NCBI GenBank assembly: GCA_947172415.1
Contig: OX359190.1
Span: 2,170,001-2,234,000 of the forward strand
Reading direction: 5' to 3'
Source: Chondrosia reniformis
Taxonomy: Eukaryota; Porifera; Demospongiae; Chondrillida; Chondrillidae
DNA length: 64,000 nucleotides
Shown here: in pieces, positions 3,000-45,807 of the stretch
Numbering within the stretch: position 1 is the stretch's first letter
Layout of the letters: each line of letters begins with the position of its first letter
Program-made: the position numbers and the translations under genes
Notes under the pieces: model-generated
Told to the model about the DNA's origin: nothing
Database searches by the model: none
The model's input: the letters and a program-made list of their open reading frames with translations, nothing else

Positions 3000-3818
3000 G
3001 GGTTAGCTGATGTTATAAGTGTGTTGTTGTTCATATAGTCAGAGGTGCATGGAAAGTATTATTTTGTTAAAAAGGTGAATTTAAATGAACAATTTACGTC
3101 TAAAGGGAATGTCTAATAGTGACTGGTGTTACTAATTATATTCATGACCAATAGTAGTTGGTGCTCCCTCTCTCCCTCCTGTAGATGTGAAGGGAGTGTA
3201 GAGGGTGTGATGGTTAATAAATGGTTAATAAATGTCAAGTGTTATTCTTGTGGTGTGTCGCATGCTACTTCTTAATTTCTTCATTTAACAATATTTCACA
3301 TTCCATTCACGCAGTGAGAGCAACTTTGCAGTCTTTTAACAAACTATTGGATTACAGAAAGAAAATTAACTAAATAAGCAATAATCAGAAGCAGTCCTGA
3401 CAATCTCTTTTATACGATACATGTATTTTATTTAGCCTTTAACTGTTTGTCAACCATGTAACATAACTTTAATTTTGTGTCAATGGTGTTTGATGTTTGA
3501 TGTTTGTATTGAGCTAAGTGGAGTACCAGTATTATAATGACAGTATCGTATACCAACATAAAGTGCCATCTGCAGCGGAAGAATGTTCTATAAATACGTA
3601 CAATTACGTCATTCAATCGTCTTTACACGTTGTTTGTAAACACTGAACTTGAATATTGCACGTTATGTCAATTTAATTGAAGTTTATTGATCACAAGCAT
3701 TATTCTGTGACTATTTATATACATGTATGTGTGCAGGAGTAAATTTGTGAGTTAAGTGGTTTAAGTACTGTGAGGTTTCAAGCAAAGAGGGTGACGAACT
3801 GTTCCACTTGAAAAGCAC
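3000..3818 (+). other. Spacer and promoter region between death-domain gene and elongase 1
   Basis: No coding exon is visible. The equivalent spacers are 17,258-18,042 (block 2) and 33,325-34,261 (block 3). All three end in a conserved stretch of about 200 bp before the elongase ATG, which should contain its promoter and 5' UTR. Block 3 diverges from the others between about 33,340 and 33,760. A TGCA insertion at 3,046-3,049 distinguishes block 1 from block 2. Confidence 0.6.
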
Positions 3819-4556
3819 ATGATGACGTCGACTGGAGCTGCAGGTCTTGAAGAGACAGTAGGACTCCGACTAACTGCTGTGACTACTAAACTCTGCAGTT
3901 TACATAGTTTTCCACTGTTTGTTGTTTATCTCATTTTCACTGCATCTGCTCGTCTTATTTGGAAGGTGGCTGCACCCGTAGATCTGAAGATTCCATTAAT
4001 ATTGCACAATTTGACTTGCTTTGTGGCGAGTGTGTACACGTTCGTTGCTGGAGTGTACGCATTGACAACAACACCGTCTTTGCTCACTGTTTCTGAAGGA
4101 AACTCGAACGTTATCCACGTCTTATATGGATATTGGATAAGCAAGGTGATTGAACTCTTGGATACCGTATTTATTATCTTTCGACACAAGAAACGGCAGC
4201 TAACGGCGCTTCATGTTTTTCATCACTCGAGTATGCTGCTCCTTGCAGATTTCGCTTACAGCAGGACGCGTTGGACTCCATGCAATATCAGTCGGTTTCA
4301 CCATTAATTCCTTTGTACACATAGTCATGTACGGCTATTACAACCTAGCAACCTTCTACAGCCTCAGCTCAGCATGGTGGAAGAAAGGAGTGACACAGCT
4401 GCAGATTATCCACTTTTTGTTTGTATTTATGTGGGAGTTTATGGCTACGTGAACTACGGGTATTGTATTTATTCCATTATTTATCCCGTAGCAATCTTAT
4501 TATTCTTTATAAACTTTTACTATAATGCCTACTTATCCAAAAGATTCAAGAAGTAA
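3819..4556 (+). pseudogene. ELOVL-type very-long-chain fatty acid elongase, copy 1 (frameshifted)
   Basis: The ELO family catalyses the condensation step of fatty-acid elongation in the ER membrane. Family signatures visible here are KVIELLDTVFIIFRHKKRQ, the catalytic histidine box HVFHH, and NSFVHIVMYGYYN in the continuing frame. The C-terminus ends in a lysine-rich tail (SKRFKK) typical of an ER-retention signal. The reading frame runs open from the ATG at 3,819 to about 4,280, where a 4-bp TGCA insertion (4,281-4,284), absent from copies 2 and 3, shifts the frame. A second shift near 4,427 (one T fewer than copy 2) follows. The gene appears intronless in all three blocks. As assembled it cannot encode a full elongase. 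Which ELOVL subfamily it belongs to cannot be decided by eye. Confidence 0.88.
4281..4284. other. TGCA tetranucleotide insertion in elongase copy 1
   Basis: Copies 2 and 3 read GGACTCCAATATCAG where copy 1 reads GGACTCCATGCAATATCAG. The flanks are identical. The four bases shift the elongase frame just after the histidine box. It is one of at least eight such differences in the window. Confidence 0.9.
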
Positions 4557-4904
4557 TTAAAGAAGACTACGATGAAGCTAAAGAAGAGACTGTATATTAA
4601 GAGAGTTTACGTATAACAAGTCTTTTATTTCTATTACACCTTGCATATACATGCACCAAAGTAGCTATGTGCACACCAAAGCTCCAAAGTAAGTAAGCCA
4701 AAGCAGCTATACTTTTGTGTTGTATATTGAATTGCATGCCCAATTCATTTTCACTATTAAATTTTGGACGGTATTGAACAAGTGGAATTTTGCCATTGTA
4801 GAAAGCTTTTTAATTCATTAAAATATATAAATTTTAAATAAGATTGATGGATGCAATGTATATTCATGTGACTGTCACATGACCTGATGTTCCTCACATC
4901 AGTA

Positions 4905-7618: not shown

Positions 7619-7935
7619 ACGTTTGTAAAAACCGTAGCATATAATTATGGTAAAGCTGTATTAGTAGTGTTCGCTATATAAACATTACGAAATGATGCAT
7701 ACCTTAGATAGTTCTTAATGAGAATTAAGGAAAAATTGCTTGATTCAACAGAAAATATGAAATAATTATAAAATTGTACAAAAATGGTAGACTTACAAGT
7801 GGTGTATCTAACTGTTCCTGATTGACTATATGAGAAGTCTCCATCTTTTGAAAGCAACTGAATATTATATATGTAACGATAGGAGGAGAAATGGTGTGAT
7901 AGATTATTCATACAGTATACCCTAATGTTTATGCA

Positions 7936-9680: not shown

Positions 9681-9682
9681 AT

Positions 9683-10275: not shown

Positions 10276-10560
10276 TCTTTCACCAATTATCTCCACCAGC
10301 TTCTGTATGGTAGACCGGTAGACATCATTTTTGTAAATGTTTTTTATTTACTTTAAACATTACGAAATGATGCATACCTTACTGTATTTGGAAGGCAACA
10401 CTTACTCGGGTTTTCCTCTCATGCAGAAGAGGCGGGATGAACCAGATCTGCCGCCAATAGTTCAACGGTGTCAATAGTTGTTATAGTGACAGTTAGAGTT
10501 ATATAGAGCAGTCAGTGAAGTGTTTTCTCAGTTTTTAGTTTTGTTCGCTTTGCTGAAGAT

Positions 10561-13500
10561 ATGAACAAAGATAAAGTGAGTTCACTTAGGTCTAATTGGT
10601 CTCTTGAAAGTAAAAGATGGGCGGAGCCGCTCGGAATCGAACGGTCTGACTGCGTCTCCTACACTCATTTAAAAAGACACAGGCTATAGATCTGAAATAC
10701 TTAAAGCGTTGGGATGAGTCTAATCGTAGAACAGATATCGCAAGTGAACCTGCTCTGTCGGGACGTAGCTGGCATATCTTTACAGAGACTAGTTTCTGTT
10801 CGATTGGGTTTCTTTAGACTGTAGTTTTAAACCAGTCAACTATACGTCAACTATACGTATAAAGACACAAGCGATTCATATCCTTTTAGGGGACAAGTTA
10901 GAAAGCGAGAAACTGATTCCGTAATCTTTTCCATAACTGAATAACCTCTCTGTTGCTCTACTGGTGGGAATTACTTTATCACTGTATATTCGTACGTTAT
11001 GAAGTTTACTAACTTGACTACGTATGAGCCATGCATGCACGTTAAGACAAGATTTACGTTAAGAATATTTAGACAAGAAGATTTACGGTACTTACAGACC
11101 TCAAAGTGTTCAATAAGCTGCTACAGAACTTGCTCCTTCCATGTCATTCAGTTCCTCCAAACAGTGAATATTATCTTTTCTTTCTTGTCTCTATAATTAG
11201 GTATTTCGCAGTGACCTCCTGGCAGCTGGAGGAGGTCACATCCTAAAACCAACTAAAATACCGGAAATGCCTATTGGAACCAAATTTGGCAAAGCTGTTG
11301 TACACAAACAAAGAGTTTTTGTCTGCGGAGAGGAGAGAGTTCAGATTTACGATGTTAAAGCCAATAAATGGTCAACAGTACCTCCATCTCCGTATTCTCT
11401 TAGTCGAGCCACCATCATAAAAGATCAGTTAACTCTGATAGGAGGTGAGGACACTCACATTCCTACAAACAAGCTACTGACATGGACAGGTGAAGAATGG
11501 TTAGAGCTTTATCCTCCAATGCACACTGCCCGATACCATCCAGGTGTTCTTGCAATTGGAGACTTAATAATTGTGTCTGGAGGAGTTAACAACAAACAAT
11601 TAGACACAATTGAATTCCTGGATATTAAGAATAGAATGTGGACCCAATCGAATCTGAAATTTCCTCGACCATTATCAGAACACCACATGGCATTGTGTGG
11701 TGAATACATTTACATCTACCACTGGTTTGGATATTTTTGGAGAATGAATAAGAAGAATTTTATGGCTTCACTTACCAATAATGATGTACATCACTGGGAA
11801 CAGCTCGAGAATGCACCACAGCTCAGTTCACTTTTACAATACAGCACTCTACCAGTCCTAGTAGGTCCAAATGGAATCTTCATTTTTGAGAAAAAGAAGT
11901 GGACACGAATTGGTGAAGAAACGTCTTATTACAACAATTGTACGGCTTCCCTCAACGGAACTACGTTTCTCACCATTGGAGGAAGAGAAGGAGGACAATA
12001 TAAGACAAGAGCTGTACAGTATGATATTGTAGTTAAGGTTAGTAACTTATTTAATTACAAAACATTACATTTAAGTATTAAAATTCTTGTTAATATTAGT
12101 TGCGCGCTTCGCGTGCACTTTCTCCTTCAAATAGAAACATTAGAAGGTTTTATTTCCTTCGTTAGAGTCATCTAACTTGTGCGCTCAGTGTACACGAAGC
12201 GTGTGTCAATGTTAACAAGACTTGTATAGCTTTATTGTTCTCGTACGAGTGTGTTCTACGAGCGCTCTCACGAGTTTAAGTGTTAACTTGATTCCACTAA
12301 CGAAGACTGTTAAGTCTTCTTGCTCTTAGCATTTGAAGGAGAGTGTGTACGTTTTATAAATGTGCCAAATTTTAAAACAGTTTCTTGTCGCGCTACACAT
12401 GTAATTTAAGAGAAAGTAGTTTTATAGAAGTGCTAAGTTGTAAATCGGCATTTAGACCTACACATGGAATTAATTTAACGTCCTGTGCACGTTCGTGTGA
12501 TTAGTTATAACTATGCAGTAGTGTTGGTTGTAAACACAATTAATAAACTACTTCCTCAACAGTAAATTGCTACAAAATTTATTTGGCAGTCTAAAGTCGG
12601 CCATTGTTCCAGTGAAAAATAGTCGTCAGCGTCTTAGGCAGATGATTATTACTCGTATTAAAGAGATGTTGCTTTCTTAAATTAGGTTTTCCTTGTTAAG
12701 GTTAGTGTATAAAAGATAAATAAAGGCAAATAGATTTGTCAGTGAGAATTATTCATACAATTATATTAGGATTTTAAGTATACTGAACTATAGGAATAAT
12801 TGTAAGTTGACATTTTACTTTACAGCCAAGAATAGGACAGCTACATATACAGCTAGGTACTGCGTATACAGCTAGGTGCTACGTATACAGCTAGGTACTG
12901 CGTATACAGCTAGGTACTACATATACAGCTAGGTACTACATATACAGCTAGGTACTACATATACAGCTAGGTACTACATATACAGCTAGGTACTGCGTAT
13001 ACAGCTAGGTACTACATATACAGCTAGGTACTACATATACAGCTAGGTACTACATATACAGCTAGGTACTACATATACAGCTAGGAACTACGTATACAGC
13101 TAGGTACTGCATATACGAATATTGACTTATTGACTCCTACAATGACTTGAGATGTGTTTGTTTCATACAGTATAATTGAACCATAACTTTAAATAGTTTG
13201 AATACTTTTTTTATAAAATGCTATTCCAAAGCTGTAGTGTACGTAAGTGTATAAAAGTATGTAATGTAATATTCTTAGGAGGTAGACGCTAGCTTGAAGG
13301 AGGGAGACACTAGCTTGAAGGAGGGAGACACTAGCTTGAAGGAGGGAGACAGTAGCTTGAAGGAAGGAGACACTAGCTTGAAGGAGGGAGACAGTAGCTT
13401 GAAGGAAGGAGACACTAGCTTGAAGGAGGGAGACAGTAGCTTGAAGGAGGGAGACACTAGCTTGAAGGAGGGAGACACTAGCTTGAAGGAGGGAGACAGT

Positions 13501-16500
13501 AGCTTGAAGGAGGGAGACACTAGCTTGAAGGAGGGAGACAGTAGCTTGAAGGAAGGAGACACTAGCTTGAAGGAGGGAGACAGTAGCTTGAAGGAAGGAG
13601 ACACTAGCTTGAAGGAGGGAGACAGTAGCTTGAAGGAGGGAGACACTAGCTTGAAGGAGGGAGACACTAGCTTGAAGGAGGGAGACAGTAGCTTGAAGGA
13701 GGGAGACACTAGCTTGAAGGAGGGAGACACTAGCTTGAAGGAGGGAGACGCTAGCTTGAAGGATGAATTTATCATTTTCAAGGTAGGTTTGTTGAAAGTA
13801 TATTTAAGTATTTTTTCAACTGATATATTGTCATGTTGTAGAAGGAAATGGAGGAGAAGCAGACATTGATTGATCAAGTAGAGAGATTGAAGCAATCTGA
13901 AAGAGAGTATGAGCTAAAGGTCAAAGAACTGATGGAGAGAAACACTCAGTTGAAGGTACGGTATCCTACTGTAACACCTCCCACACCTCTGCTGATTTAA
14001 CCTGTCTGGATGTATTAACACTGCCTGCACACAACATCACTAGTTATCCACCAGTTTACACCTAATAGAGTAAGGATTACTTCTGTAACTGCTTCCAACT
14101 TATCTTTTGATGGTTCGTCTTTTGACCTTTTGGACATCTAAAGACGCAGTTTGGTAAATATTTGTTGACAAAAGGTTTACCAAACTGTGTCTTTAGATGT
14201 TAAAAGATGAACCATCCAAAAGATACAGTACATATGGGACATACAGACACTTTGTTAAATAGATAGGCCAATTGAAGTCTCATCCTGACTGGTGAAAGTA
14301 CATTGTGGACTAGAGAGCCGATAGTGCACTGACATTACATATAATTTACAAATTTAATGTGTTTCACCTCTTGACTTTGGATCACAGCAAGTTAACACAT
14401 CTCATGTATGTACAGTATGTAGATATATATTTGCTAGTCTGTTGGGAATGCCTAATTTCCAATATATATTCAGAATCCTAAGATCTAGTACTTAATGTGT
14501 CCACCTTTTTAATGTACTTTCTATGATGCAATTTTGAATTAACTGTATAGTTTTTGAGTAAGAGTATTTGAAATTTACTTAAAGCTTTCTACAAATCCGA
14601 ATCACTTCCATTGATATATGTTCTGTTGTGTGTATATACAGACAGAAGTAGCTGATTTGAGCAGCAAAGGAACAGAGACACAACAGAAATACATTGGACG
14701 TCTTGAGGTATGAAGACACTGGAGAGGATTTATAATGTGTTATTTGATTTACAGGCTTATAATATAATACTGTAGGAGAGGATAGCTGAACTGACCACAG
14801 AAATGAGAACTCAGAAAGACGATCTGAAAGAGCGTATTACTGATTTGAAGGAGTCCAACACTCATCTAAAGGAATCTAACATTGAATTAAAGGAATCCAT
14901 TTCAGAATTCAGGAGAAAAAAATCAGATTTGAAGGAGTCCAACAGCCAGTCTACTGTGTGTGTCACTGTTGACATGTAGTGAATATGTTATTTGATCAAC
15001 CCTTTTATATTCTTATATTGATGTAGGAGAGGATAGCTGAACTGACCAGAGAACTGAGAGACGCTCAAAGAAATATAGCTGAAGTAACCAGAGAATTGAA
15101 AGATACTCAAACAAATGTAGACAAATTAGAAGTTTCCAAAGTGTACCTGGAAGAACGTATCAATGACTTAAAGAAAACCAATTCTCTTTTGGAAGAAGGC
15201 AATTCTGATTTGAAGGTAATCCATTGTTTTGACATGTAGATTTCTTATTTTCATGTACGTATATAGTAATTGGTGTATTAATGAGCTGAATGAATACTGT
15301 ATGTAACATGTGAATGTGTTATTGCATGTTAATTATAGATGGAACTTTGTATGTATATACATATAATATGTACGCGTACATGTACGTATATGTCAGAAAC
15401 ATTCACAACTAGTAACTGATTGACAAGACATCTATGTACTGCAATGTAGACTAGACTACAGCAGCAACAGCAAAGTACAGAAAGAGTTGCAGAGTTACAA
15501 GAAGAGAACGTCAAACTAAGAGAAGAGAAGGTATTTCATTTCACTATTACTGTACTCGGGAGTGATTATTGGTACTTCCTTTTAACATGTTTCACAAATA
15601 GTCGATTTTAGGACAACTCATCTAACGTTGCCAACCTTAATTATGTCCCAAATTATCCTATGCTACACTATATGTACATACATAGTTACTTACTCCTGCA
15701 GAATCACTGGATCTGCAATAATACATCTTTTGGTTAAACCAGTGCATTATGAAATAGTAATATATGTACAGTCTGTCCCCATTGATAGTAAGCGTGATAT
15801 ATGAATATCATTATTGAACAAGAAATGGTCTCTCTTTCAAACACCTTGTATCAGCTGTGGAATAGACTGTTACAGATTTTTATAGCTTTTCTTCTAATAT
15901 TTAGAAAACTGTTGATTCTTCTTATTTTTACTTGTGTAGAGCTTTCTTGAAGGTTCCTTGAAAGAAACTGAAGACAGAAGGAAAGCTTTAGAGGAAGAGA
16001 AGGCTAAAACTGAAAAGCAAGCTGAAGAGTTGAGGAGTAACATGTTGGAAAAGGTTGAAGGATTTGGTGCCATGTTAGAAGAAATGAAAAAATCATTAGA
16101 TGTGTTGGAAGGTTAGCTTTTGCAGTCATTTATTTTGCAAAGAAGTGTACTAGACTTGTTAATTGAGCTATTTGATTCATTTCCACTATTTAGAAAAGCA
16201 AAGCAAAGGAGAATTAATGAGGTGAGTATGTACGTATAAGCAATTCATAAATCTTTGAGTTGGTCCTGATACAATAGTCTATTACATTTGACTTGTAGCT
16301 ATTTCTACTCATCAGATATAGAGTAAACCTCACCACTGACAATAGTCTACAGGTGTGAAGGAAGCTAGTAATTTGACTTTAGTTGGGCAAAGTTGTTATT
16401 ACATGTTTCTGAAAATATTGAGATTAAACTGAAAGAAATATAGAGACTAAACTGACTCAAATTTGAATGGAGACTGGAATTATTGTTAATGTTATTTTAG

Positions 16501-17257
16501 TAAAGTTTTTAGTCCAAAAGAACCTGTACTAAACCACTTATGGTTAGTTTGTGTAATACAGTCAATTTTAAGAGAACTGAGGCTCTTGCTAATTCCTTCA
16601 CCAGTAAGTCTTCCTGCTTTTAAATTAATTGTTCTCAAATTGTTTGCTCACCATTTGAAGGGTCTGCCAGACCACCTCTGCAGTCCCTGATCTCTGACTA
16701 ATGTACACCAGTTAACTGGGCCAGTTGACTATGTACACAGGAAGATTAATTCTCTAATTTTATTCATTACTCTTTAATGATATTCATAGAGTACGTCTCA
16801 TAGACTAGAATTCTGTGTTATTATGTCCTTATAATATTCACTCAGAAATTCTACAATAGATAATATGAAATGTGTCCGTAGACACTCCTAAAAGATGCAT
16901 GATGTACGTATCTACGAATTAAGTATTTTATTACTTTCCATAGCACTGAACTCACAACCAGACATATGGATGTGTTGCTAAGAAAGGTCATTGATAAAGT
17001 TCCTCAGAAATGCATGGGAGGAAATTGCAATTTGCCTTCAGTTTGAGGACAATAAGATAGCCTCACTTAAGGACACAAAGTTAAACAATGAGGGACTATG
17101 TAAAGCCATGCTGAGATCTTGGCTGAGACAAGAAAAGGAGTCTGGTAGTCGGCCAAGGACCTTGAACACATTGTATAAAGTCCTGGTGGATCGAAACTGT
17201 AAACTTGAGGCAAAGGAGCTGGTGGAGGCTGTAAAGGGACATGTGGAGAGGGAATGA
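10561..17257 (+). CDS. Kelch/heptad-repeat/death-domain protein, copy 2
   Basis: Exon phases join into one gene: 10,561-10,575 (MNKDK), 11,201-12,037 (kelch-like repeats, e.g. GEERVQIYDVKANKWSTV, LTLIGG and ILVVSGG-type blades), 13,279-13,782 (about 22 SLKEGDT/SLKEGDS heptads), 13,842-13,955, 14,642-14,707, 14,776-14,955, 15,027-15,215, 15,450-15,530, 15,940-16,111, 16,194-16,221 and 16,944-17,257. Kelch blades usually form a beta-propeller for protein binding. The heptads have Leu every seventh residue and are followed by a Glu/Lys-rich coiled coil. The last exon is a death domain (WEEIAICLQFEDNKIASL, then AMLRSW). Every junction I checked keeps phase, and the only lesion seen is a TGCA insertion at 17,011-17,014 that shifts the frame inside the death domain. 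A cytoplasmic adaptor or sensor is plausible. The kelch-to-heptad junction is inferred from phase only. Confidence 0.78.
12837..13113. repeat. Intronic minisatellite, 19-bp unit
   Basis: About 14 units of ACAGCTAGGTACTACATAT, some with TGCGT in place of ACAT, lie in the intron between the kelch exon and the heptad-repeat exon of copy 2. The matching array in copy 3 is at 29,492-29,815 and includes a variant GGGCCAACATATACAG that alternates with the standard unit. Confidence 0.93.
13294..13761 (+). repeat. Coding minisatellite, 21-bp unit (SLKEGDT heptads)
   Basis: The 21-bp unit AGCTTGAAGGAGGGAGACAC is repeated about 22 times, often alternating ACT and AGT at the last codon, so SLKEGDT alternates with SLKEGDS. 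Copy 1 has about 10 units (54-250) and copy 3 about 15 more variable ones (29,988-30,308). The number changes by whole 21-bp units, which preserves the frame. Confidence 0.95.
17011..17014. other. TGCA tetranucleotide insertion in death domain of copy 2
   Basis: Copies 1 and 3 read CAGAAATGGGAGGAA; copy 2 reads CAGAAATGCATGGGAGGAA. The four extra bases shift the frame inside the first helices of the death domain, in a gene whose other exons look intact. Confidence 0.9.
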
Positions 17258-18042
17258 GGGTTAGCTAATGTTATAAGTGTATTGTTATTCATATAGTCCG
17301 AGGTGGAAAGTATTTGTTAAAAAGGTGAATTTAAATGAACAATTTACGTCTAAAGGGAATGTCTAATAGTGACTGGTGTTACTAATTATATTCATGACCA
17401 ATAGTAGTTGGTGCTCCCTCTCTCCCTCCTGTAGATGTGAAGGGAGTGTAGAGGGTGTGATGGTTAATAAATGTCAAGTGTTATTCTTGTGGTGTGTCGC
17501 ATGCTACTTCTTAATTTCTTCATTTAACAATATTTCACATTCCATTCACGCAGTGAGAGCAATTTTGCAGTCTTTTAACAAACTATTGGATTACAGAAAG
17601 AAATACAACTAAATAAGCAATAATCAGAAGTAGTCCTGACAATCTCTTTTATACGATACATGTATTTTATTTAGCCTTTAATTTTGTGTCAATGATGTTT
17701 GATGTTAGTAATTCACTGGGCTTCCTGCTAAGTAGCCACGTTGAGCTAAGTGGAGTACCAGTATTATAATGACAGTATTGTATAGGAACATAAAGTACCA
17801 TCTGCAGCGGAAGAATATTCTATAAAAACGTACAATTACGTCATTCATTCGTCTGCACACGTTGTTTGTAAACACTGAACTTGGATATTGCACGTTAGGT
17901 CAATTTAATTGGAGTTTATTACATTATTCTGTGACTATTTATATGCATGTATGTGTGCAGGAGTATATTTGTGAGTTAAGTGGTTTAAGTACTGTGAGGT
18001 TTCATGCAAAGAGGGCGACGAACTGTTCCACTTGAAAAGCAC

Positions 18043-19896: not shown

Positions 19897-20207
19897 TTAA
19901 AGAAGACTACGAGGAAGCTAAAGAAGAGACGGTATTTTAAGAGAGTTTATGTATAACAAGTCTGGAAAGTCTTTTATTTCTATTACGTGCTCACCTTGCA
20001 TATACATGCACCAAAGCAGCTATTTCTGTGTTGCATAATTATAATATAATAATGTTGAATTGCATGCCCAATTCATTTTCACTATTAAATTTTGGACGGT
20101 GTTGAATAAGAGGAATTTTGCAGTTGTAGAAGAGAGATTCATTAAAATATATAAATTTTATAATGTTCATGTGACTGTCACATGACCTGATGTTCCTCAC
20201 ATCAGTA

Positions 20208-29900: not shown

Positions 29901-32900
29901 TTTTTTTTATAAAATGCTATTCCAAAGCTGTAGTGTACGTAGGTGTATAAGAGTATTAACATGTATTCTTAGGAGGAAGACACTAGCTTGAAGGAGGGAG
30001 GCACTAGCTTGAAGGAGGGAGGCACTAGCTTGAAGGAGGGAGACGCTAGCTTGAAGGAGGGAGGCACTAGCTTGAATGAGGGAGACGCTAGCTTGAAGGA
30101 GGGAGGCACTAGCTTGAAGGAGGGAGACGCTAGCTTGAAGGAGGGAGGCACTAGCTTGAAGGAGGGAGACATTAGCTTGAAGGAGGAAAACACTAGCTTG
30201 AAGGTGGGAGACGCTAGCTTGAAGGAGGAAAACACTAGCTTGAAGGAGGGAGACACTAGCTTGAAGGAGGGAGACAGTAGCCTGAAGGAGGGAGGCATTA
30301 GCTTGAAGAATGAATTTATCATTTTCAAGGTAGGTTTGTTGAAAGTTTATTTTGATATTTTTTCAATTGATATATTGTCATGTTGTAGGAGAAGGAAATG
30401 AAGGAGAAGCAGACATTGATTGATCAAGTAGAGAGATTGAAGCAATCTGAAAGAGAGTGCGAACTAAAGGTCCAAGAACTGATGGAGAGAAACACTCAGT
30501 TGAAGGTACGGTATCCTACTGTAACACCTCCCACACCTCTGCTTGTTTAACCTGGCTGGATGTATTAACACTGCCTGCACACAACATCACTAGTTATCCA
30601 TCAGTTTACACCTAATAGAGTAAGGATTACTTCTGTAACTGCTTCCAACTTATCTTTTGATGGTTCTTCTTTTGACTTTTTGGACAACTAAAGACGCAGT
30701 TTTGTAAATATTTTGTTGACAAAAGGTTTACAAAACTGTGTCTTGAAGTCTCATCCTGACTGGTGAAAGTACATTGTGGACTAGAGAGCCAATAGAGTGC
30801 ACTGACATTACACATTATTTGCAAATTTAATGAGTTTCACCTCTTGACTTGGGATCACAGCAAGTTAACACATCTCATGTATGTACGTATAGATACGTAT
30901 TATGCTAGTCTGTTGGAATGCATTTACCAGATGCATTCAGAACCGAAATATCAGATGTTGATATTTTTAATGTACATTTTATGAAGCAAATTGGCCTTAG
31001 TACATAACACTGATTAATTCCTTCCACAAGTGTTTGAAATTTGTTTAAATCTTTCTACAAAATGCTATATCTCACTTCCATTGATATATGCTCTGTTGTG
31101 TGTATATACAGACGGAAGTAACTGATTTGAGCAGCAAAGGAACAGAGACACAACAGAAAATCATTGGACGTCTTGAGGTATGAAGACACTGGAGAGGATT
31201 TATAAATGTGTTATTTGACTTACAGGCTCTTAATACTGTAGGAGAGAATAGCTGAACTGACCAGAGAACTGAGAGACATTCAGAAAGACAATCTACACCT
31301 GAAAGAACGTAATAGTGATTTGAAGGAGTCCAACAGCCAGTCTACTGTTCACCTGGAAGAACGTATCAATGACTTAAAGAAAATCAATTCTCTTCTGGAA
31401 GAAGGCAATTCAGAATTGAAGGTAATCCATTATTTTGACATGTAGATTTCTTATTTTCATGTATGTGTATACGTATATATTGTTGATATTTAGTATTTAT
31501 TTTTGATGTACATACACGTATATACCAGTGAAATGCATGTGAATGTGTTATTGCATATTAGATGGCACTTTGTACGTGTATATGTATAATATGTGCATGT
31601 ACATATACATATGTCAGACACATTCACAACTAGTAACTGATTGACAAGACATCTATGTATACTGCAATGTAGACTAGACTACAGCAGCAACAGCAAAGTA
31701 CAGAAAGAGTTGCAGAGTTACAAGAGGAGAACATCAAACTAAGAGAAGAGAAGGTATTGCATTTCACTATTACTATACTCTGGAGTGATTATGGGTACTT
31801 CCTTTTAGCATGTTTCACTCAACTGCCACAAAATGCACGAGATCCGAGGCGGGAGCATGTATACTGTGATGTTGTAACTGGTATACACTCCGACCCTAGG
31901 TATTTACTCAGTTAGGGAAAAGCGCATTGTATAACTATAATATGAGCTAGGCTGAATGCCTCTTATTATAGTTATACAATGGTTATGGAATATAATTTGC
32001 CTTGGTTGCCCCAGCAACGGACTGTATGACTGTAGAGACTTCATATTTAGAGCAATTTTTCAATTCCATTTATTCATCCCTACTTGTGTAGAGCTCTCTT
32101 GAAGCTTCCTTAAATACTTTGAAAGAAGAGAAGGCTAAAGTTGAAAAGCAAGCTGAAGAGTTGAGGAGTAACATGTTGGGAAAGGTTGAAGGATTTGGTG
32201 CCATGTTAGAAGAAATGAAGAGATCATTAGAGGTGTTGGAAGGTTAGCTTTTGTAGTTATTATTTTGCAAAGAAATGTACTAGACTTGTTACGTAATTGA
32301 GCTATTTGATTCGTTTCCACTATTTAGAGAAACAAAGCAAAGGAGAATTAATGAGGTGAGTATGTACGTATAAGCAATTCATAAATCTTTAAGTTGGTCC
32401 TGATACAATAGTCTATTACAGTTGACTTGTAACTTATTTCTACTCATCAGATATAGAGTAAACCTCACCACTGACAATAGTCTACAGGTGTGAAGGAAGC
32501 TAGTAATTTGACTTTAGTTGGGCAAAGTTGTTATTACTTGTTTCTGAAAATATAGAGAAACTGACTCAAATTTGAATGAAGTCTGGAATAATTGTTAATA
32601 TTATTTAGTAAAGTTTTAGTAGTAAACCCACTTATGGTTAGTTTGTGTAATACAGTCAATTTTTAGAGAACTTTGACTCCTGCTAATTCCTTCACCAGTA
32701 AGTCTTCCTACTTTAATTTTACTCAAATTGTTGGCTCACCATTTGAAGGGTCTGCCAGACCTCCTCTGCAGTCCCTGATCTCTGATTAATGTACACCAGT
32801 TAACTGGGCCAGTTGACTATGTACACAGGAAGATTAATTCTCTAATTTTATTCATTACGCTTTAATGATATTCATAGAGTATGTCTTATAGACTAGAATT

Positions 32901-34261: not shown

Positions 34262-34888
34262 ATGATGACTGGAGCTGCAGGTCTTGAAGAGACAGTAGAA
34301 CTCCGACTAACTGCTGTGACTACTAAACTTTGCAGTATACCTAGTTTTCCACTGTTCGTTGGTTATCTCGTTTTCACTGCATCTGCTCGTCCTATTTGGA
34401 AGGTGGCTGCACCCGTGGATCTGAAGATTCCATTAATATTGCACAATTTGACTTGCTTTGTGGCGAGTGTGTACACGTTCGTTGCTGGAGTGTACGCATT
34501 GACAACGACACCGTCTTTGCTCACTGTTTCTGAAGGAAACTCGAACGTTATCCACGTCTTATATGCATATTGGATAAGCAAGGTGATTGAACTCTTGGAT
34601 ACCGTATTTATTATCTTTGGACACAAGAAACGGCAGCTAACGGCGCTTCATGTTTTTCATCACTCGAGTATGCTGCTCCTTGCAGATTTCGCTTACAGCA
34701 GGACGCGTTGGACTCCAATATCAGTCGGTTTCACCATTAATTCCTTTGTACACATAGTCATGTACGGCTATTACAACCTAGCAACCTTCTACAGCCTCAG
34801 ATCAGCATGGTGGAAGAGAGGAGTGACACACACTGTAAAAATCATTGGAGGAGCTAACCACCAAATTACCTTGACCAGTAGAGCCACC
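34262..34888 (+). pseudogene. ELOVL-type elongase, copy 3 (5' part; interrupted by CACTA element)
   Basis: Open from the ATG at 34,262 to the transposon border at 34,830, covering the membrane segments, KVIELLDTVFIIFGHKKRQ, the HVFHH box and NSFVHIVMYGYYN. The frame then runs about 20 codons into the transposon terminus before a stop. The rest of the gene is at 48,961-49,119, beyond the 14.1 kb insertion. An Arg-to-Gly change in the conserved basic stretch after DTVFIIF is also seen. Confidence 0.88.
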
Positions 34889-34990
34889 TTTAAATGGTGT
34901 TAATTCCCACTACAATTTTTTGGTGTTGTAGGCCACCCATTTTACCAGTGCATTCCACATTCCACAATTTTCATTTTCATTTTCATTTTG
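34831..34990. repeat. Left terminus of CACTA-like element
   Basis: The terminal inverted repeat CACTGTAAAAA is followed by subterminal motifs CTAACCACCA, GCCACC, AATGGTG and GGCCACCC in alternating orientations. In CACTA elements such repeats bind the transposase. Confidence 0.75.
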
Positions 34991-35913
34991 AATATTTACA
35001 ATCATAAATTTCAAAAAGATGAACCATGCATGCATTAAAAAGTCATGTATGTTTTTACATTTTCTTCTTATACACTTCCTCAATTCTAGGGTAATAAATT
35101 CTACAAAGGAGAAGAATTATACACATTGATCAATGGAGACAATGCATGCATGGTATAAATGGGAAGTACATGCAGAATCAAATATGGAAACTAAAATGTA
35201 CATATACACTTGAAATTGGACTTTTTATATACACCATTAGTAAATCAAAGTATATAACAGGCATTGTGTGGTATACAAATCACTCGCATGCTCTGTCAGT
35301 ATACATGGAGGAGCTGTCAACAGACCTACAAGAGGAATGTATAAACAATGAATATCATTTAAAGAGTTGGTGGTTGGAGGATAAAGAACTCTGTCTAGCA
35401 GTAAATCCCATGCATAGAATCCTTCAAACAAAACTGCAGGAATTACATTTAACTGCAAGCACAAGTCACATCATGACATGATGATATAATTCCTTTCCCA
35501 ACTGGATCATCTGACAGTCATATTTATAGCTTATAGCAATAGCATACATGGAAGAAGGACCCTTCATAAACATTTTCTCAATGAATTCCTAAAAAGTATA
35601 TCCACATCAGGAAACTATTGCATGCATATATATGTACATACCTGCCTTCTGTTTCTAGCTGCATGGGACAATACCACAAGGTGCAGGACCATGCACCCTT
35701 GCATGTTGCTTCTCCCCTGGCCATATACCATGCCAGGGCATATACTTCAGGTATGCAATTTATATATAATGAGATTCATTGAAAGCTTTAAAACCATATT
35801 CATAGCATTAACTAATGAATAGCGCAGGCCCTCTTTAACAATGGAACCTCACACTATATAATTATATGCATGGGTCAAGTAGTAAATCAAGTTCCATTGT
35901 GTGGTTGATCAGC

Positions 35914-38481
35914 ATGGAATTTAAAGCCATGAAAAGTGGTGAAATTAAGGAATGGTTGACAGACAAAGGAATTTCCTTGGATGTAGTAAACAGCCTATTC
36001 TGTAAGCCCATTTATGCATATAAAAGTGTAGTGCAAGGTATATACGTACCTAATGCCTTTACAGTGGAGGACATAACTGGTGCAGATCTTCTGGAATTAA
36101 CCTCTGAGAAAAACCTGTGTGACCTTTGCACTGTCTGCCCAAGGCTAAAGGATAGGATAAAACTGCGAACAGCAGTGCTACAGATGAATGAAGTAAAAAA
36201 GCTATAAATTTATTTCTAATTCATTAAACTACCATTTTTAAATGCTATATATGCATGCATGGTTTCATACTCACGATTAACTTTTATATACACATTATTA
36301 GGAAGAAGTCAATAAAAAGGTCACTGTTGACATCCAGTGCAGTTCATCATTAAAGAGTTCACTGACAGGAGCAATGCCAGTGCAATGCTTAACTGAAACC
36401 ATCCATGTGTGTATATAGACAAATTAATTATACATATACATAGATGGATGCTCACTTCCACATAGGAAAACAGTGAAATGGAAATTGCTGACTTCAAAGG
36501 TGAATCAGGTTCTAAAAAAGTAGAAAATTCACCTAATAACGATGTTAAAAAAGTCAGTTGAAATTATGATATATGAATTAAGCTTACATACATGAAAATT
36601 ACATATATATAATACACAGGAAATTATAGAATTGGATCAAGATGAACCTATTCCTAATCCCTTTAAATGCCAACTACCTTTAGATTTAGAGGTAGCACTG
36701 AAATCAAATTCAGCAATACCCCCAAAGACAGTGAATAGAGTAGCAAAATATGTTAGCCACAAAATGTTTGGGTACAGTAGAAAGGTCAATAAAAAAGAAA
36801 GAGAAAGGGTAGCAAACGAAATGGTGCAAAAGTATCCTGTTCTTGGGACTAAAGTAAGTACATATACGTACGTACATACACAAGTTCACAATATACAGCA
36901 TTATTTTTATAGAGTGCACATATAAATGTTAAACCTGTCCACATTGACATTCTACTGCATGTATATATGCTTCAGGAAATTGTGTCCCAAGCCATTAGGA
37001 ATAAATTTAAAGAACTTAATCGACGACCTAGAACAGCAAATGAGAAAGAACAAATGCTAGATGTAAGGAAAAGTACACATCTTTACAATGCAATTCGTGC
37101 TTCATGCACATGAGTGCATATATATATATGTAGCAAAAGACTCACTTTATCAAGATGGAGGAAGAAGACAAAAACAGTCAACCTGCAAAGAAAAGGAAAA
37201 TAGAAGTACATTTTAATGCTGATTTTAGAGAGTAGTCAAACAGCCATGCATGCAGTACAGGCATATACTTACGTATATACAAACATTCGTATATGCATAC
37301 TACATAGGAAAAAACTGACATAATCAAGATGGAAGATGAAGAAACATCAACCCAAGCTGGAAAGATTATGGAGGTAAATACATGACACTATATACATGCA
37401 TGCACATGGTATATGCAATTTTAAAGGAATATAAATGCAGGACTACGTTATATATGTATATATAGGCAACCTTATCCAAGACAAAATGTGATGAAGCTAC
37501 CTATGCAAGACTTTCCAAAAGCTTACATGAGCTATACACACAGAGAGAGCAAAACTTGAACTTAATAAGTGAGCAAATACTATACGTACGTATATATGTA
37601 TATCATTACATATAGATCTATACATACGTATATATGTGTGCAGTTAGCTTGATGGCTAGAACATTTATCAATAGGAGGCAAGCCATTGAAAATCATCCTA
37701 TGCATATAGACTTGCTATTGGACAAGTATCCATTCTTAGGCAATTTAGAGGAAGTCAGTCTACCATCTTATATTCAATTGACAGTTTAATTAATTTTGGT
37801 AATTTCTAATTCAGTTTGAATCAGAATTAGGATGGTTAGCAGGACATAAGGTAGATGTAAGTCTGTTTGCCAAAGATTATGCTGACAAAATAATAACACT
37901 TGCTATTAAAGAAGACAGTGCTGCAACTCAGAAAGGCTATAACTCTGATAATGGTGAAAACACATTATGTACATTGAAAGTTTATACGTATACATTATGA
38001 CTTTAAGAGTGATTTATATATGCAGGCAATTTGAAGGTCATAAAAGCCTTGGAATGTCTATGCTACTTACTTAAAAGCAAAAAGGGCAAAACAGACCCTT
38101 CAGCCATCTGTATGCAATATCCGGTAAATAGCACACACTTATATGTATATATGTACATTTAAGTACATACATTTGTATGTGCATCTATAGAATTGCACTG
38201 ACCCTTCTATTGTCTGTGAAGAAAAGGGGGATAAGACGCCAAAGATCATGTGGTCTGACAAAGACACATTCCTAATGGTAGACTGCCGAGCCTTGTTCAA
38301 AATAAACAGTGAAAATGCAGCACATATCCTTCTAGGAGCTTTCCATGTCTTCCACATTGAATATCCAGAGCCATTCAAAAATTGTTTCCATTTTTTGGAG
38401 ACCCTGTATCTAGAAAAGAGTAAAATAACGAAAACTTTATCAAACAAAGTGAAAACCTTAATTGGACTGATTAAACAATAA
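35914..38481 (+). CDS. SAM-domain accessory protein of the CACTA-like element (SAMD3-like)
   Basis: A multi-exon gene with introns of about 60-120 bp. The first exons encode a SAM-like domain (SGEIKEWLTDKGISLDVV, then ITGADLLELTSE; the intron 36,002-36,064 restores a compact SAM spacing). Next come PIPNPFKCQLPLDLEVAL and KTVNRVAKYVSHKMFGYSRK with MVQKYPVLGTK (exon about 36,620-36,853), NKFKELNRRPRTANEKEQML (36,976-37,062), an IENHPMHIDLLLDKYPFLG segment (about 37,650-37,760), and a last exon about 38,190-38,481 with LLGAFHVFHIEYPEPFKNCF. This order matches proteins often annotated in animals as SAMD3-like. In this family I know them as residents of EnSpm-type transposons, but their role in transposition is unknown. 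The start at 35,914 is a best guess. Confidence 0.68.
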
Positions 38482-38638
38482 TACATATATACATATTACT
38501 GTGTGAAGATACAAGGATTTATTCATATAGAATCAAGTTACATTATTATTATTATTGTATACTTTTATATACAATGAACGTGCATGGCAGTATATATATG
38601 GAATACACCAACATATATAACTATATAAATTTACAAAA

Positions 38639-41600
38639 ATGGCTAGATACAAATGTCCGCTTTGTGGCTGTGCATTTCTAAAACATGCTTCAGTATTGTA
38701 TCACATCAACAAAGACCACAAATTCGAACCTTACAAGATCAAGTGTGGAATTCAGGGATGTCCAGCAGAATATGCCAACACAGAAGGCTTGCGGACTCAC
38801 ATTAGAAGGAAACATAAAGATAAAATATCTGAATATGAAACCACATCAATAAACCAAGGCTATGGAAATGATTTTGAAGGCTCTCAGGATGAAGAAGGTA
38901 TACAAGAAGAGCATCACTATTTGACTTCAAAAGAAGCTATGAAGAAGTCATCAGCTAGGTATCTCTTAAAAGTTCGGGAAATTCATAGGCTACCACAAAA
39001 AACTGTCAATGAACTTATTAAGGACACTAGACATCTTTATAAAGAAGTGATGCACCACTACCAGGAGGAAACCAGAAAAGTGTTAGAGGCTGTTGGTGTG
39101 GATACAAGTGAGTCTAACCCTGAATTATATCGTCACTTAGATATAGAAGCACTGCCTGACCCATTTGAAGGACTAGAAACACAACACTTCCAGAGGCAGT
39201 ACTTTCTTGATGAATTTGGGCTCATAGTAAGCTTATATACGTATGTACGTATACATTCTATTCATCACTTTATCTATATGTATATATAGGAACCAATAGA
39301 GAGAAAGTTGGGACAGGTCCTTCAAAGAGTTGGAACCTTTGGTAGGCCATCGCTATCAAGATTGGTCCGAAAATGGGAATGTGCCTATAACATTAGCTTC
39401 AAGTCTTCCCTTCAGCTACTTTTGAATAACAATTTAATTTTGGAACAGGTATGTATAAAAATGTGCTGGATAAATGATGTTCATATAGATAAGTACGTAT
39501 AATATATGTACAAGCTAACACATGCATGTGTATAGGCTGCATGTCCTCTATTGTAGATGGCCGACCACGCCACACACAATGACCTACTTCATGATGTCTG
39601 TGATGGCAAACACTTCAAGGACAATCCCCTTTACAGAGCCCACAATGATGCAATACAGGTTATACTATACTATGATGATGTGGAGATGTGCAATCCACTT
39701 GGCTCAAAAAGGAAAATCCACAAACTTGGTAAAAAGTAATATATTACATACACTCAGACAGTGTAAACTATACATTGCATGTATTGGTTTGCATGTAGCA
39801 ATGTTCTACTATACACTTGCAAATATAAGGCCCGAACAAAGGTCCAACTTAGCCACAATACAATTACTCACTGTAACAAAGAGTGAATATGTTAACAAAT
39901 ACGGGATTGACAAGATCCTGGAACCATTCATCCAAGAAATGGCAGAGTTGGAACAGGTACAGTATATACAGTGCACATACATATATACATGCATACAGGT
40001 ATATGGAATAGTCTCTCTATGTATATACAGCATGCAGAGATAATATGAACATTAATTTTGACATATACGTATTGGAAAGATACGTATATATATGTATTAA
40101 TCCACCAGATATACTGCATATATAAGTTCATGCATATATAGGGGATGGTTATAAACGTGAAGGGCATTCCCAAAACTATCTATGGTACACTTTTATGTGT
40201 ATCTGCCGACAATCTTGCCAGTCAACTAATAGGAGGCTACAAACAACTTGCTTCAGCCTTAAAAAAATGCAGATTTTGTTACGCAGAAGATAATGATGTA
40301 CAAACCAAGGTATATATATATGCATAATGTATAGAGAAAGTAAAATACTTACATATATAAACCTAGAAACAGGCATCTATTATGTATAAATGTCATCAGA
40401 TGTACGAGCATAGTTTCTATACATGTACATAGTTCAATGCAAAGGATATCCCACAACGCACAAGGGCAACATACAATAGTGACTGTGATTTACTGGAACT
40501 TTGTAGGGAGGATCATCAAAGACAGGCAATTGCCAAAAACGTAGGCATTGTCAAAAGGTCAGGACTAAATAAACTTCACTACTTCCACGTTAATGATGGA
40601 CTACCCCCAGACATCATGCATGACCTCCTAGAAGGAGCAGTACCTTGTGAAGTTAAGTGTCTTTTAAAGACATGTATATTGGAGAAAAAACTCTTTTCTT
40701 TGCAGTTCTTTAATAACAGGATGACATATTATGAGTAAGCATATTTAAATTTAACAATGAGATTTTACATTACCGTATATACATATGTAGGTACAACACA
40801 GCAGATGCTAAGGACAAACCATCAAGTATTTACATCAACACTCTGAAAAGCAACGATAACAATCTCAAACTATCAGGTATATATTGTACACTTAATTCCA
40901 TTTACCAATAACTCTATGGATGTAGAACAAACAGTTTTTCACATCAACACATTTATACATATATATAGCCATGCAATCATGGACCCTAGCTCGGTATTTA
41001 CCCCTAATCATTGGAGACAAAATTCCAGAAGACAGTATTTACTGGGAGACATTTTTAACATTGTTGGACATCCTAGATATCTGTTTTTCACCAAATGTAT
41101 CCACCGAACAAGCAACATACCTGGCAAATCTAATTGAATTACATCATGAAAGCTATAAAGAAGCATATCCTGATAAAAAACTAATACCTAAACAGCACTA
41201 CATGATACACTACCCTGACAGCATAAAAAGGTACGAGTATATGGCAATTTATACATCTATACTGAGAAATATATATACGTATATACTTCAAATATACATT
41301 ATATTACAAGGTATGGACCACTGGTGCGTATGTGGTGCATGCGCTTTGAAGCAAAGCATAGTTACTTCAAGAAAATGGCCAACACATTAGGAAATTATAA
41401 AAATCTGCCTAAATCACTAGCAAGTAGACACCAGCATTTAGTTTCCTATCAGATGAGTAACCCTGAAAGATTTGGCAGGTACTACATTGCTGATGCTGTG
41501 AAAACAAGTGAAGGTGTGTATATATATATCTATAGAAACAGCTCTATACATATGTATATCATTGGCAAGCATTATATATCTTATATATAAATGCAGCCAT

Positions 41601-42114
41601 GCAAATGGATCTAAAACAACACAAACATGCAAGCATTATTCAGTTAGCTGTGGGACAGGTTGGGACATTATTCAGGTGAGTAATTAACAGTCCTGCATGT
41701 ATTGGCCAGCATTCAGGCATACATCATTAATGTATGATGTTTGATACTGCTCACTAGACCCTCACCACTCCATATAGGGTTCACTGGGTTAACATGAATA
41801 CGCTAAAGTATTCCATTGGTGCAGTTGTCACATTGGCTATTGGCGATGATGACTTACCAGTATTTGGAGAAGTAAAGGAGATAATTGTCTACAACACTAA
41901 CAAGATAATCTTCCTCACTGAAGTACTCAGCACTGACCAATTTCACCATCACTATCATGCCTATAAAGTTTCAAGAATGGAACATAAAAAATGGCATGTC
42001 ATTCATTACTCCAGCCTAGTGGATCATATACCTCTATCCCTCCTCCAGTCATGTGATGTCTCTCTCCTTGGTAGCTACTTTGTGTTGCCACGATATAACA
42101 TTAATTGGACTTAA
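38639..42114 (+). CDS. EnSpm/CACTA-type transposase with N-terminal C2H2 zinc fingers
   Basis: Eleven exons join in phase: 38,639-39,226, 39,290-39,448, 39,557-39,728, 39,799-39,956, 40,142-40,309, 40,433-40,734, 40,791-40,876, 40,969-41,230, 41,311-41,513, 41,597-41,674 and 41,778-42,114. The N-terminus has C2H2 fingers (CPLCGCAFLKHASVLYHINK; CGIQGCPAEYANTEGLRTH). Candidate catalytic residues are the Asp pair in VILYYDDVEMCNPLG, Asp in VSADNLASQLIGGY and Glu in RFEAKHSYFKK; CRFCYAED looks like the inserted Cys motif of the family. PDIMHDLLEGAVPCEVK and HYMIHYPDSIKRYGPLV match conserved blocks of animal EnSpm-like transposases. No stop or frameshift was seen across the joined exons, so the enzyme may be active. 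Confidence 0.85.
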
Positions 42115-42714
42115 ATACTAATTGCCTCTTCTACCACACTATACAACCTTAATAGAGACTAACATTAAAGTGCATTACCTTACAAAAATGACACCAACTT
42201 CACAACATCAAGAAGATTCATGTGCAAGTATGTTTTTCATTTAATCAAATTCATTTTAAATGAAACAACAGAGCATTTATATAACTGCTATAAGTTTACT
42301 GAATACTACGTAAATCACCAGGTCCTGTCGTACTCATGCAGAAACTACATGAATATGTAATCAATGCGAAAATTATAACCATGCATGGGTCTTAATTACA
42401 TCATAATATAATGACTGAATAGGATGGTGGAATCCATGATGCATGGATCGTAACTTTCATTGCATATATACGTATCTATGACTACACATTATTAACCATA
42501 CAGTCTTTGCACCCTCGCAATTAGATCGATATTACTATATAACTGGAGACAAAATTCCCTATACTGTTTTCGGATTTAGTCATTCAGGGCTATTACTATT
42601 AATTTACTACAGATGATCCCACTTACCATTCTGAATCACCGCAGCAAACATTGAATTAATTAAAGAAGAATTAAAGCTACATTATACTATATACTACACC
42701 TTCATAACTTAATC

Positions 42715-43060
42715 AAATAGGGTCAATTGGGTCACCATGAATACATTCAAGTATTCTATTGGTATATAGTTGTCACCTTGCATGGCTATTGGTGATGATG
42801 ACTTACCCCTGTGTTTGGTAAAGTGAAGGAGATCCTTCTCTATAACACCAGCCAGATCATCTTCCTCACTGAGGAACTCCACACTGACCATCACTATCAT
42901 ACCTATAAAGTTTCAAGAAAGGAACATAAAATATAGCATGCCACTGAATACTCAAGATTAGTGGATCATGTACCCCTATCCCTCCTCAGGTCATGCATGT
43001 GATGTGCTACTCTTTGATAGCTACTTTGTGTTACCGCGATATAACATTAATTGGACTTAA
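42715..43060 (+). pseudogene. Degenerate second copy of the transposase last exon
   Basis: This stretch aligns with 41,778-42,114 (for example GTCACCATGAATAC, GGTGATGATGACTTACC and CGATATAACATTAATTGGAC). It has several small insertions, two of them the tetramer TGCA (42,779-42,782 and 42,994-42,997), and is not open. It is a tandem partial duplication inside the transposon. Confidence 0.82.
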
Positions 43061-44878
43061 ATATGACTACATTTACTACTATTCAACCGTGATTTCAAGC
43101 ATTTATACTCAGCAATCTGGGGCAATTTGAATCGCCACAACAAAGCTGAGGAGAAATTCATAAACTTTGAAACACTACACGATAATTATACACTGTACCC
43201 AGATATGCTGTTTTACTTGACCAATTTACGGAGCCAATATTTTTACTATGTATGAAACTCAGTTACCAACATGCTGTGGGAATGTTAAGCTTCGTTCACA
43301 GTAGGTCTTGCAACATCTGAGAACTACGCATAGGTCTTGAAGAACTGCAAGTCCGGGGTTAAAGCGATCAAAACGCCCAATAGCAAATTTGAATACATAG
43401 CTTCAATTCTGATTGGAGGAAGTTCCTAACCCATTGCGAAATTCATTACAATGGCGGATGATAAATCAGCAGCGAAGATAGAGATTAATCTTCCTAAGTT
43501 GGACACTTGAAAGTTAGACCTTAACAGAATAATAAGGTCAGTGACAGCTGGAATAGAATAATTTTTTTACACATTCATACTTAACAATGTATTGACTTGT
43601 ATGTTTCATACTTAATGTAAGGTAACTATATAATATATAGCTATGTTTTTGTACTGATTTGTATGTTTGGTTTATTAGGTTACGTACATGTCCATTTTGG
43701 TGAAAGGCAGATTTTTGATTAGTAAAATAGTGTTATCCTTTCACTTAGGCTGTCCTTGTTTGTCAGAGTATATACGTACCTGTATATGTGTGTAATAAGA
43801 TGACATGCAAGTGCTGCTCTTTATTTAAGCTAAGCTTAACTTTAACTATACAACAAGGTGTGCTTTATTGTTAGGTAAAATTTTTTTATCTTGTCACTGG
43901 CTTAGCTGCATTAGATTATTTGTGGCAAGACTCATTTCTTTGTAGTACATACATAGTGTGGTAACAGCCTTAGTAAATTAAGTTTACTTTTCAATATATA
44001 CCAGCTGACAATAAAGTACAAAGTTTTCTCATTCTCAGGTTGTGATTGTGAATGGTACAGGTTGTCTCTGTTTGCCAGTGTAAATGTCTATGCTATAGTT
44101 TTGTGGAATAACAAGGTCAGTGACAGCTGGAATAGAATACTCTTTATGTTTATTCATACTTAACAATGCAAGGTACAATGTTTTTGTATTGTATGTTTGT
44201 ATGGCACTGGATCATTACCTGTCCAATAATATATTATATTGGTCATTGTGGTCCTTTTTGAGAAGACTAAGGAGTGGTGAGTTTGGGCCCCTTGATGTAG
44301 TTTAAGTTGGGCAGGCTAGGGCAGGCCCTTCACACTTGGAGGTATTCCACTTACTATTGTCACCTGAGTATGAATACAATTGACCTTTTCCAGATTATAG
44401 GGGTTCACCTATGCATCTATTTCTTCTGTGGAACATTTGCCTTTAAAAGTCCCTAAAGGGATTACTGAAGTTCTCCAGAGGAAAAAGATGTATGACGTAA
44501 AACTGTCCAGGTTCAATAGTTGAATTACTACTCCATGTATATATATGTGCAAACTCAGCCTCTGAGCAAGAAATGAACAGCACAAACAAATGAAAATTAA
44601 ATTCATAGGGATACACAATCAACATTCCAACCAGTCTGTTAGACACTCACCCCACTCCTTGTTGCCATAGTTACACTGGCTTCAAAACATTAATTAAGAC
44701 TCAATGTCTGTACATTATATATAACATCTTTGAACTTACAATTGTTACAATTAAAAACAAAAAATGGAACCTATTAATCCTCAGGGTTAATTAGATGCTT
44801 TTTGTTGCCAGTACATATAGTCAGGTTGTCTCTCTGAAAGTTACAGAAGACCTTCAAACACAACAACTCAAACAAGGA

Positions 44879-44926
44879 GTTCGAGTTAAAAAAACTCGTG
44901 GGGCTGCCGCCCCAATTAACTCGAAC
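44879..44926. repeat. Hairpin with GC-rich apex
   Basis: Arms GTTCGAGTTAA (44,879-44,889) and TTAACTCGAAC (44,916-44,926) surround AAACTCGTGGGGCTGCCGCC, which itself folds (GGGGC/GCCCC). The rest of this part of the element is AT-rich, so the GC apex stands out. Function unknown. Confidence 0.6.
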
Positions 44927-45807
44927 ACCTTGGCGTCATCAGTCGCTGCTTGGCCTATGCAACAGTAATGTAATTGTAAGTATATTGTGAACTTAAAAGT
45001 CTAGTTTAACCGAGAATACCTAATTTTCCTAGATAGAACACTGCACTTTGCGGCTTCGTGTACCTTAATCGTAACAGAGCGCCGTAAAACCTTCATTTTC
45101 GCTTCGCAGAAGGCTCTTGTTCAAATGCTCTTATTGTGTGTATAGTAATTGATACCCTATAGCTGTTGTGCTTCATGGCTGCAACGTAAAAATCAATTCC
45201 TAAGTTTACACTAATATTCCAAACAAGTCTGCTATACACCCACTTCTTGTTGCCATACATGGCTTCAGGGACAAGCTATATAAATTCACTTACCACAAGT
45301 GTAATGGAGTGTTGTGTTAATAGGACATAGGATGATGCAAGTGCTGAGCTAAGCCAAACTTAACATGCTTTATATGTAGTTATGTAAAATAATTTTTCTT
45401 GTGTCTAGAGTTGTGGGAAGACTTAGTTCTTTGTGCATGCATGGTACAAAGTTTTCCTACGCTCAGCAATTACTGAATAATAGGGTCATGCAGTGACAGC
45501 TGGAATGGAATATTTGCATGGAATAGAATGGTCTTTTAGTTTATGCGCATTATCTAATAACAATAAGGTACAATGTTTTTGTACTGACTCTTATTTTATG
45601 TTTGTATAGAACTGGCTAGCTACAGAACTGGCTTTAGCTGCATTTGGAATGGGAATCTTTTTGGGAAGACAATATTAATCATGTACATAAAGACATAACA
45701 GAATCTAGATCTATATAATATTACATTAAAAGAATTAGGAGGCAGACTAGGACAGGCCCTAGAAGTGTACTGTGTACCTATATAACCCTATACATATAAT
45801 ATGGCAC

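Follow-up and report, generated by a model that had tools for sequence, protein, structure and literature searches.

Recurrent TGCA insertions at CA/TG dinucleotides in a sponge genome and their possible origin as transposon excision scars

Why should diverged copies of one duplicated block differ, time after time, by the same four bases? The question arises from a 64,000-nucleotide stretch of Chondrosia reniformis contig OX359190.1 (positions 2,170,001 to 2,234,000), referred to here as the window, in which a preliminary description made from the letters alone had listed eight insertions of the palindrome TGCA. The window holds three copies of one long block, A (1 to ~13,238), B (~13,239-29,934) and C (~29,935-56,272), which are about 80-98% identical across aligned pieces, and mostly 84-94%. 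It also holds a CACTA/EnSpm-type transposon, called EnSpm below. We found that the TGCA insertions are real, that as a class of 4-bp insertions they are very far from random, and that they share one sequence and one target context, and we weighed whether they are scars left by transposon excision. The window is animal DNA: among its products are an ELO elongase, kelch repeats, a death domain and a NAB protein that has both the NCD1 and the NCD2 region; to our knowledge, NAB proteins are confined to animals.

Eight TGCA insertions in one dinucleotide context

TGCA was present at all eight coordinates claimed, and for each site a paralogue with similar flanks but no tetramer was found (Table 1). 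Six sites were shown cleanly by BLAST alignments, whereas 42,994 and 45,489 were weaker. At 42,994 both BLAST and a global aligner placed the gap six bases upstream as AGGT (42,988), and MAFFT placed it at CATGCATG. The partner of 45,489 is a short local match, and self-BLAST (E 1e-4) gave no alignment over the site. MAFFT alignment also bore out that, in the elongase and death-domain cases, the third copy likewise lacks the tetramer; the ELO domain and the Death domain (PF00531) were both found in copy C.

The preliminary description held that TGCA fits all eight differences and CATG some of them. The first part stands, but CATG fits all eight equally well. Each event can be read as CA becoming CATGCA (on the other strand, TG becoming TGCATG), with the reverse complement lying between two retained CA dinucleotides. 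This fixed CA context is a new point that had not been named earlier. For an arbitrarily positioned TGCA, the chance of falling directly after CA or directly before TG is 0.139 per site. When the insert is removed, CA or TG is left at six sites, ATG at 17,011 and CATG at 42,994, and the terminal homology is 2 bp at six sites, 3 at 17,011 and 4 at 42,994.

Indels between the three blocks were tabulated by sequence, as the preliminary description had proposed, in two lists. With tandem arrays set aside, self-BLAST yielded 131 unique, clean indels with 20 clusters of 4 bp; a second (global) aligner gave 116 indels of at most 12 bp, again with 20 clusters of 4 bp, a few members of which differ from those of the first list. 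Merging of same-site pairs (668/669, 3,620/17,853 and 5,381/20,688) reduced the BLAST list to 17, and addition of 45,489 brought it to 18; merging of 668/669 and 3,620/17,853 reduced the second list to 18. In both lists, AGGT at 42,988 was read as TGCA at 42,994. TGCA made up 8 of the 18 nonredundant 4-bp indels in each list, against 1.98% of window 4-mers for its rotation class (TGCA, GCAT, CATG and ATGC; binomial p ~9e-10). The excess was retained when 42,994 was dropped (7/17, p = 2e-8), when 42,994 and 45,489 were both dropped (6/16, p = 4e-7), and for the sites outside EnSpm alone (5/15, p = 4e-6).

Insertion had been called likelier than deletion on the strength of the elongase and death-domain cases, and this direction was upheld for the four sites that can be polarised by reading frame. 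These are insertions because the copy with TGCA loses its frame and the copy without it is open. At 4,281 the elongase frame stops in copy A and runs through the site in copies B and C. At 17,011 TGCA shifts the death-domain frame in copy B, whereas copy C is open through the site; copy A, also without TGCA, has a 2-bp frame break of its own further downstream. The remaining two, 42,779 and 42,994, each lie at a frame change in the second copy of an EnSpm exon whose first copy is open, and other small indels lie between them.

Two broader features of window indels are recorded here as side observations. Among clean paralogue differences, indels of 4, 6, 8 and 10 bp form 43 clusters, versus 20 clusters for those of 3, 5, 7 and 9 bp, and many 4- and 6-bp indels carry a 2-bp terminal repeat.

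Table 1. Positions of the TGCA insertions, the CACTA/EnSpm-type element and related indels in the window
Feature	Position	Strand	Location and form	Comparison
TGCA	3,046-3,049		copy A, gagg[TGCA]TGgaaag	absent in copy B (17,304); copy C not alignable here
TGCA	4,281-4,284		copy A elongase exon, CA to CATGCA	absent in copies B (19,622) and C (34,716)
TGCA	10,422-10,425		copy A, CA to CATGCA	absent in copy B (23,848)
TGCA	17,011-17,014		copy B death-domain exon	absent in copies A (2,754) and C (33,081)
TGCA	28,909-28,912		copy B, CA to CATGCA	absent in copy A (12,269)
TGCA	42,779-42,782		inside EnSpm, second copy of an exon, TG to TGCATG	first exon copy at 41,834
TGCA	42,994-42,997		EnSpm, same second exon copy as 42,779, CATG to CATGCATG	
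TGCA	45,489-45,492		inside EnSpm, CA to CATGCA	short local match at 44,106; local copy at 44,118
CACTA/EnSpm-type element	34,831-48,960	+	14,130 bp, interrupts copy C, ends CACTGTAAAAA / TTTTTTACAGTG	
Target-site duplication of EnSpm	34,829-34,830 (left); 48,961-48,962 (right)		CA	
Empty sites of EnSpm	4,396-4,397; 19,735-19,736		single CA	copy A; copy B
AA to AATTAA	669-674		XY·rc(XY)·XY form as in CATGCA	copy A vs copy B
GAC to GACGTCGAC	3,824-3,832		three-base version of XY·rc(XY)·XY form	copy A vs copies B and C
TA to TACGTA	32,290-32,295		2-bp terminal repeat; middle not reverse complement of TA	copy C vs copies A and B
rc, reverse complement.

The CACTA/EnSpm-type element of copy C

The element interrupting copy C has two defining features of CACTA/EnSpm transposons. 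The terminal inverted repeats of this group start with CACT(A/G), and CACTGTAAAAA was found at both ends of the element (CACTG ends); target-site duplications of the group are 2 or 3 bp, and the one here is CA, with copies A and B supplying the two empty sites. Pfam returned zinc-finger matches that fell below the curated cut-offs in one frame of the element, and several of its exon peptides presumably resemble animal EnSpm transposases. According to PMC1636069, 2-bp duplications are found in 7 of 14 copies of the animal CACTA element SmTRC1 and in beetle and mosquito relatives. Excerpts of PMC12810828 describe two fungal relatives, CNEST, which duplicates TA, and CNIRT6, which has CACTG ends and duplicates 3 bp.

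The preliminary description had also noted that TGCATGCA strings are common in the window, as would follow from repeated insertion. They are common, but locally so: EnSpm holds 7 of the window's 10 TGCATGCA and 11 of its 15 CATGCATG, and TGCATG/CATGCA reaches a density of 4.1 per kb within the element versus ~1.0 per kb on either side. Outside it, CATGCA shows a moderate excess (51 observed, 28-38 expected). That TGCATGCA is abundant is thus due mainly to EnSpm and is no proof of repeated insertion, for which it is weak support. A k-mer excess was dropped as independent proof, as CATGCA is concentrated in EnSpm and tandem-array words head the table outside it. The peak of CATGCA/TGCATG, 13 occurrences, falls in the first kilobase of the element (34,831-35,830); these left-end strings are perhaps subterminal transposase-binding repeats.

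One further pair of CA-flanked ends, TGGTTTCATACTCA and TGGTTTCATATTCA at 36,260 and 38,843, lies inside EnSpm, with 13 of 14 end bases alike. The pair was rejected as an element, as no clear likeness extends further inward and the match is probably due to chance.

Excision through hairpin ends and the rival explanations

We propose, with about equal expectation of being right and of being wrong, that the TGCA insertions were left behind by the excision of a cut-and-paste transposon that duplicates CA, most likely of the resident CACTA/EnSpm family, and that they form by way of hairpin ends. Insertion of such a transposon would duplicate CA (TG on the other strand), and its excision would leave both copies in place. 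If the broken flanking ends were closed as hairpins and these were opened two bases past the tip, the left end would become ...CATG and the right end TGCA..., each with an extra palindromic TG. The TG overhangs would be complementary because both derive from one target-site duplication, and their annealing would give exactly CA·TG·CA. A 2-bp duplication combined with a 2-nt hairpin opening would therefore produce cohesive ends and a uniform scar. Three causes had been put forward earlier, a transposon excision footprint, templated repair and an unknown mutator. The footprint is the best supported of these because every insertion lies at CA/TG and the duplication of EnSpm is CA; templated repair and an unknown mutator stay among the candidates. 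That members of the EnSpm family left these eight positions, and that hairpins formed in the process, is what we infer. Further indels of the window follow the same form, XY·rc(XY)·XY, and were counted for the hairpin reading, namely AATTAA, TATATA and GACGTCGAC; in the TATATA/ATATAT indels, which share the form, microsatellite change is also possible.

Several points weigh against excision of EnSpm relatives through hairpins. Four of the eight sites (3,046, 10,422, 28,909 and 45,489) are unpolarised, and 42,994 without its insert already reads CATG, such that plain tandem duplication of CATG fits it equally well. The scars are uniform, unlike those of plant hAT and CACTA elements, which usually vary, and one-base or longer scars at CA (CATCA, CAGCA, CATGTGCA) are absent from both indel lists. 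In the TACGTA, TAATTA and TTATTT indels, the 2-bp homology encloses a middle that departs from the form; other transposons or deletions may be their source. As to the element itself, Pfam gave no CACTA transposase (Transposase_21 type), whether for 10 frames taken singly or for a guessed splice. EnSpm elements with a CA duplication number only one here, and the match is modest, since a random dinucleotide would be CA or TG at ~0.14. A window scan for inverted repeats found CA or TG flanks in 8 of 173 pairs with equal 2-bp flanks, where ~15% were expected from dinucleotide frequencies, and none of the eight was a convincing transposon. With no convincing CA/TG element besides EnSpm, eight scars therefore stand against one resident element.

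The scars could instead belong to another transposon family that duplicates CA, for example a short non-autonomous one, or consist of two retained element-end bases as in Tc1/mariner. The CA context would be the same, ends of the type CA...TG would leave CA·TG·CA from one end, and the TA-flanked 4-bp indels (TATATA, TAATTA, TACGTA) suggest that other elements with 2-bp duplications have been active. We nevertheless consider this origin unlikely, as the window offers no further convincing CA-flanked element. Hairpins are also preferred over retained end bases because two such bases predict CACACA about as often as CATGCA, and among the 18 4-bp indels of both lists CA to CACACA was seen 0 times versus 8 for CATGCA. 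Two other insertions in the window were set aside as sources on account of their duplications, the 3.9-kb element at 24,425-28,315 (9 bp) and the LINE at 51,441-55,157 (11 bp). A mutator independent of transposons, in which a nuclease or a habit of repair would cut at CA/TG and join the ends again through palindromic bases, would account for AATTAA and GACGTCGAC as well, and gains from the want of another convincing resident CA element. We judge it quite unlikely, as the CA duplication of EnSpm is a ready source, and we know of no nuclease or repair enzyme that breaks at CA/TG with palindromic rejoining.

Deletion at microhomology would reverse the direction of change, with a fragile CATGCA collapsing to CA by way of its direct repeat of 2 bp. 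All eight events carry the terminal repeat used by such deletions, and homology of at least 2 bp is frequent among 4-bp indels at large, being present in 14 of the 18 curated, where random insertion would give 17.5%, and in 6 of the 10 with a sequence other than TGCA. The four polarised cases, however, are insertions by frame, two of them also by the third copy, and CATGCA makes up only 1.9% of window XYNNXY sites, which would call for a special fragility; this makes collapse distinctly improbable. Local tandem duplication was rejected for seven sites and fits 42,994, where CATG pre-exists. Sequencing or assembly error can also produce frame-breaking insertions in genes, but we regard it as very improbable here, given that the sites span coding DNA, apparently non-coding DNA and a transposon. 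One tetramer in one dinucleotide context would be an unusual error mode. A restriction-type or Hi-C junction artefact was rejected because a filled 4-base overhang duplicates an existing tetramer, and seven of the eight sites had only CA, TG or ATG.

Other insertions, known systems and significance

Three further insertions were found in the window. Copy B carries 3,891 bp at 24,425-28,315, bounded by inverted ends that match each other (TAGTCTCGTACCCAGACCGC) and flanked by a duplication of 9 bp (ATGCATGCA), opposite an empty site at 11,031 in copy A; its target was a TGCATGCA string. Copy C carries a 3.7-kb LINE (51,441-55,157) that has an 11-bp duplication and whose one long open frame, of 1,176 aa, encodes an endonuclease and a reverse transcriptase. 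The third, of 1,124 bp, lies in the elongase exon of copy B (18,344-19,467) and contains, at its right end, a perfect inverted repeat of 175 bp whose arms are separated by a 24-bp spacer. In the set viral_contigs, no relative was found of the LINE reverse transcriptase, a transposase peptide, the EnSpm terminus or the terminus of the 24,425-28,315 element; in genome_contigs, none was found of the LINE reverse transcriptase or of the latter terminus.

The proposed scar was compared with known systems. Transposons of the hAT group have 8-bp duplications and scars that vary. According to PMC4561436, the scars of Ac/Ds, a hAT system, are palindromes of flanking DNA from which hairpin ends were inferred; the TGCA insertions are alike in that palindromic bases are copied from the flanks, and differ in that the duplication is 2 bp and the scar does not vary. 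Tc1/mariner and Stowaway elements, as treated in parts of PMC4561436 and PMC2874221, resemble them in keeping a 2-bp duplication on both sides of a short middle. Those elements, however, use TA (PMC2874221) and leave element-end bases (PMC4561436), whereas here the flanks are CA/TG in all eight cases and CACACA is lacking. Animal CACTA/EnSpm elements (CMC supergroup) such as SmTRC1 are CACTA-related with a 2-bp duplication (passages of PMC1636069), and the word footprint is absent from the text of that paper. The repair step has a parallel in V(D)J recombination, where, according to excerpts of PMC3528771, Artemis mostly cuts hairpins open 2 nt beyond the tip and P nucleotides are mostly 2-nt palindromic additions. 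Only the repair step is likened, and no RAG system is implied here. Titles and abstract openings of the literature searched, most of it unread in full text, gave no report of hairpin-ended EnSpm-type excision in animals. For palindromic insertions no paper came up, for TGCA insertions one unrelated paper, and of the 12 papers listed out of 14 on TGCA footprints, none dealt with insertions of this sort, judged by title and abstract opening.

A more general idea, which we put forward tentatively and rather expect to need revision, is that one mobile family, or a CA-directed process of breaking and rejoining, leaves a near-invariant CA·TG·CA scar through cohesive ends, and with it a frequent, gene-breaking and countable record of departures. 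If the excision origin is correct, the tetramer would serve as a simple genome-wide tag of past transposon excision in an animal, and such departures could be counted. It would also provide indirect evidence for hairpin ends in EnSpm-type excision, and would account for a recurrent class of frameshifts in duplicated genes.

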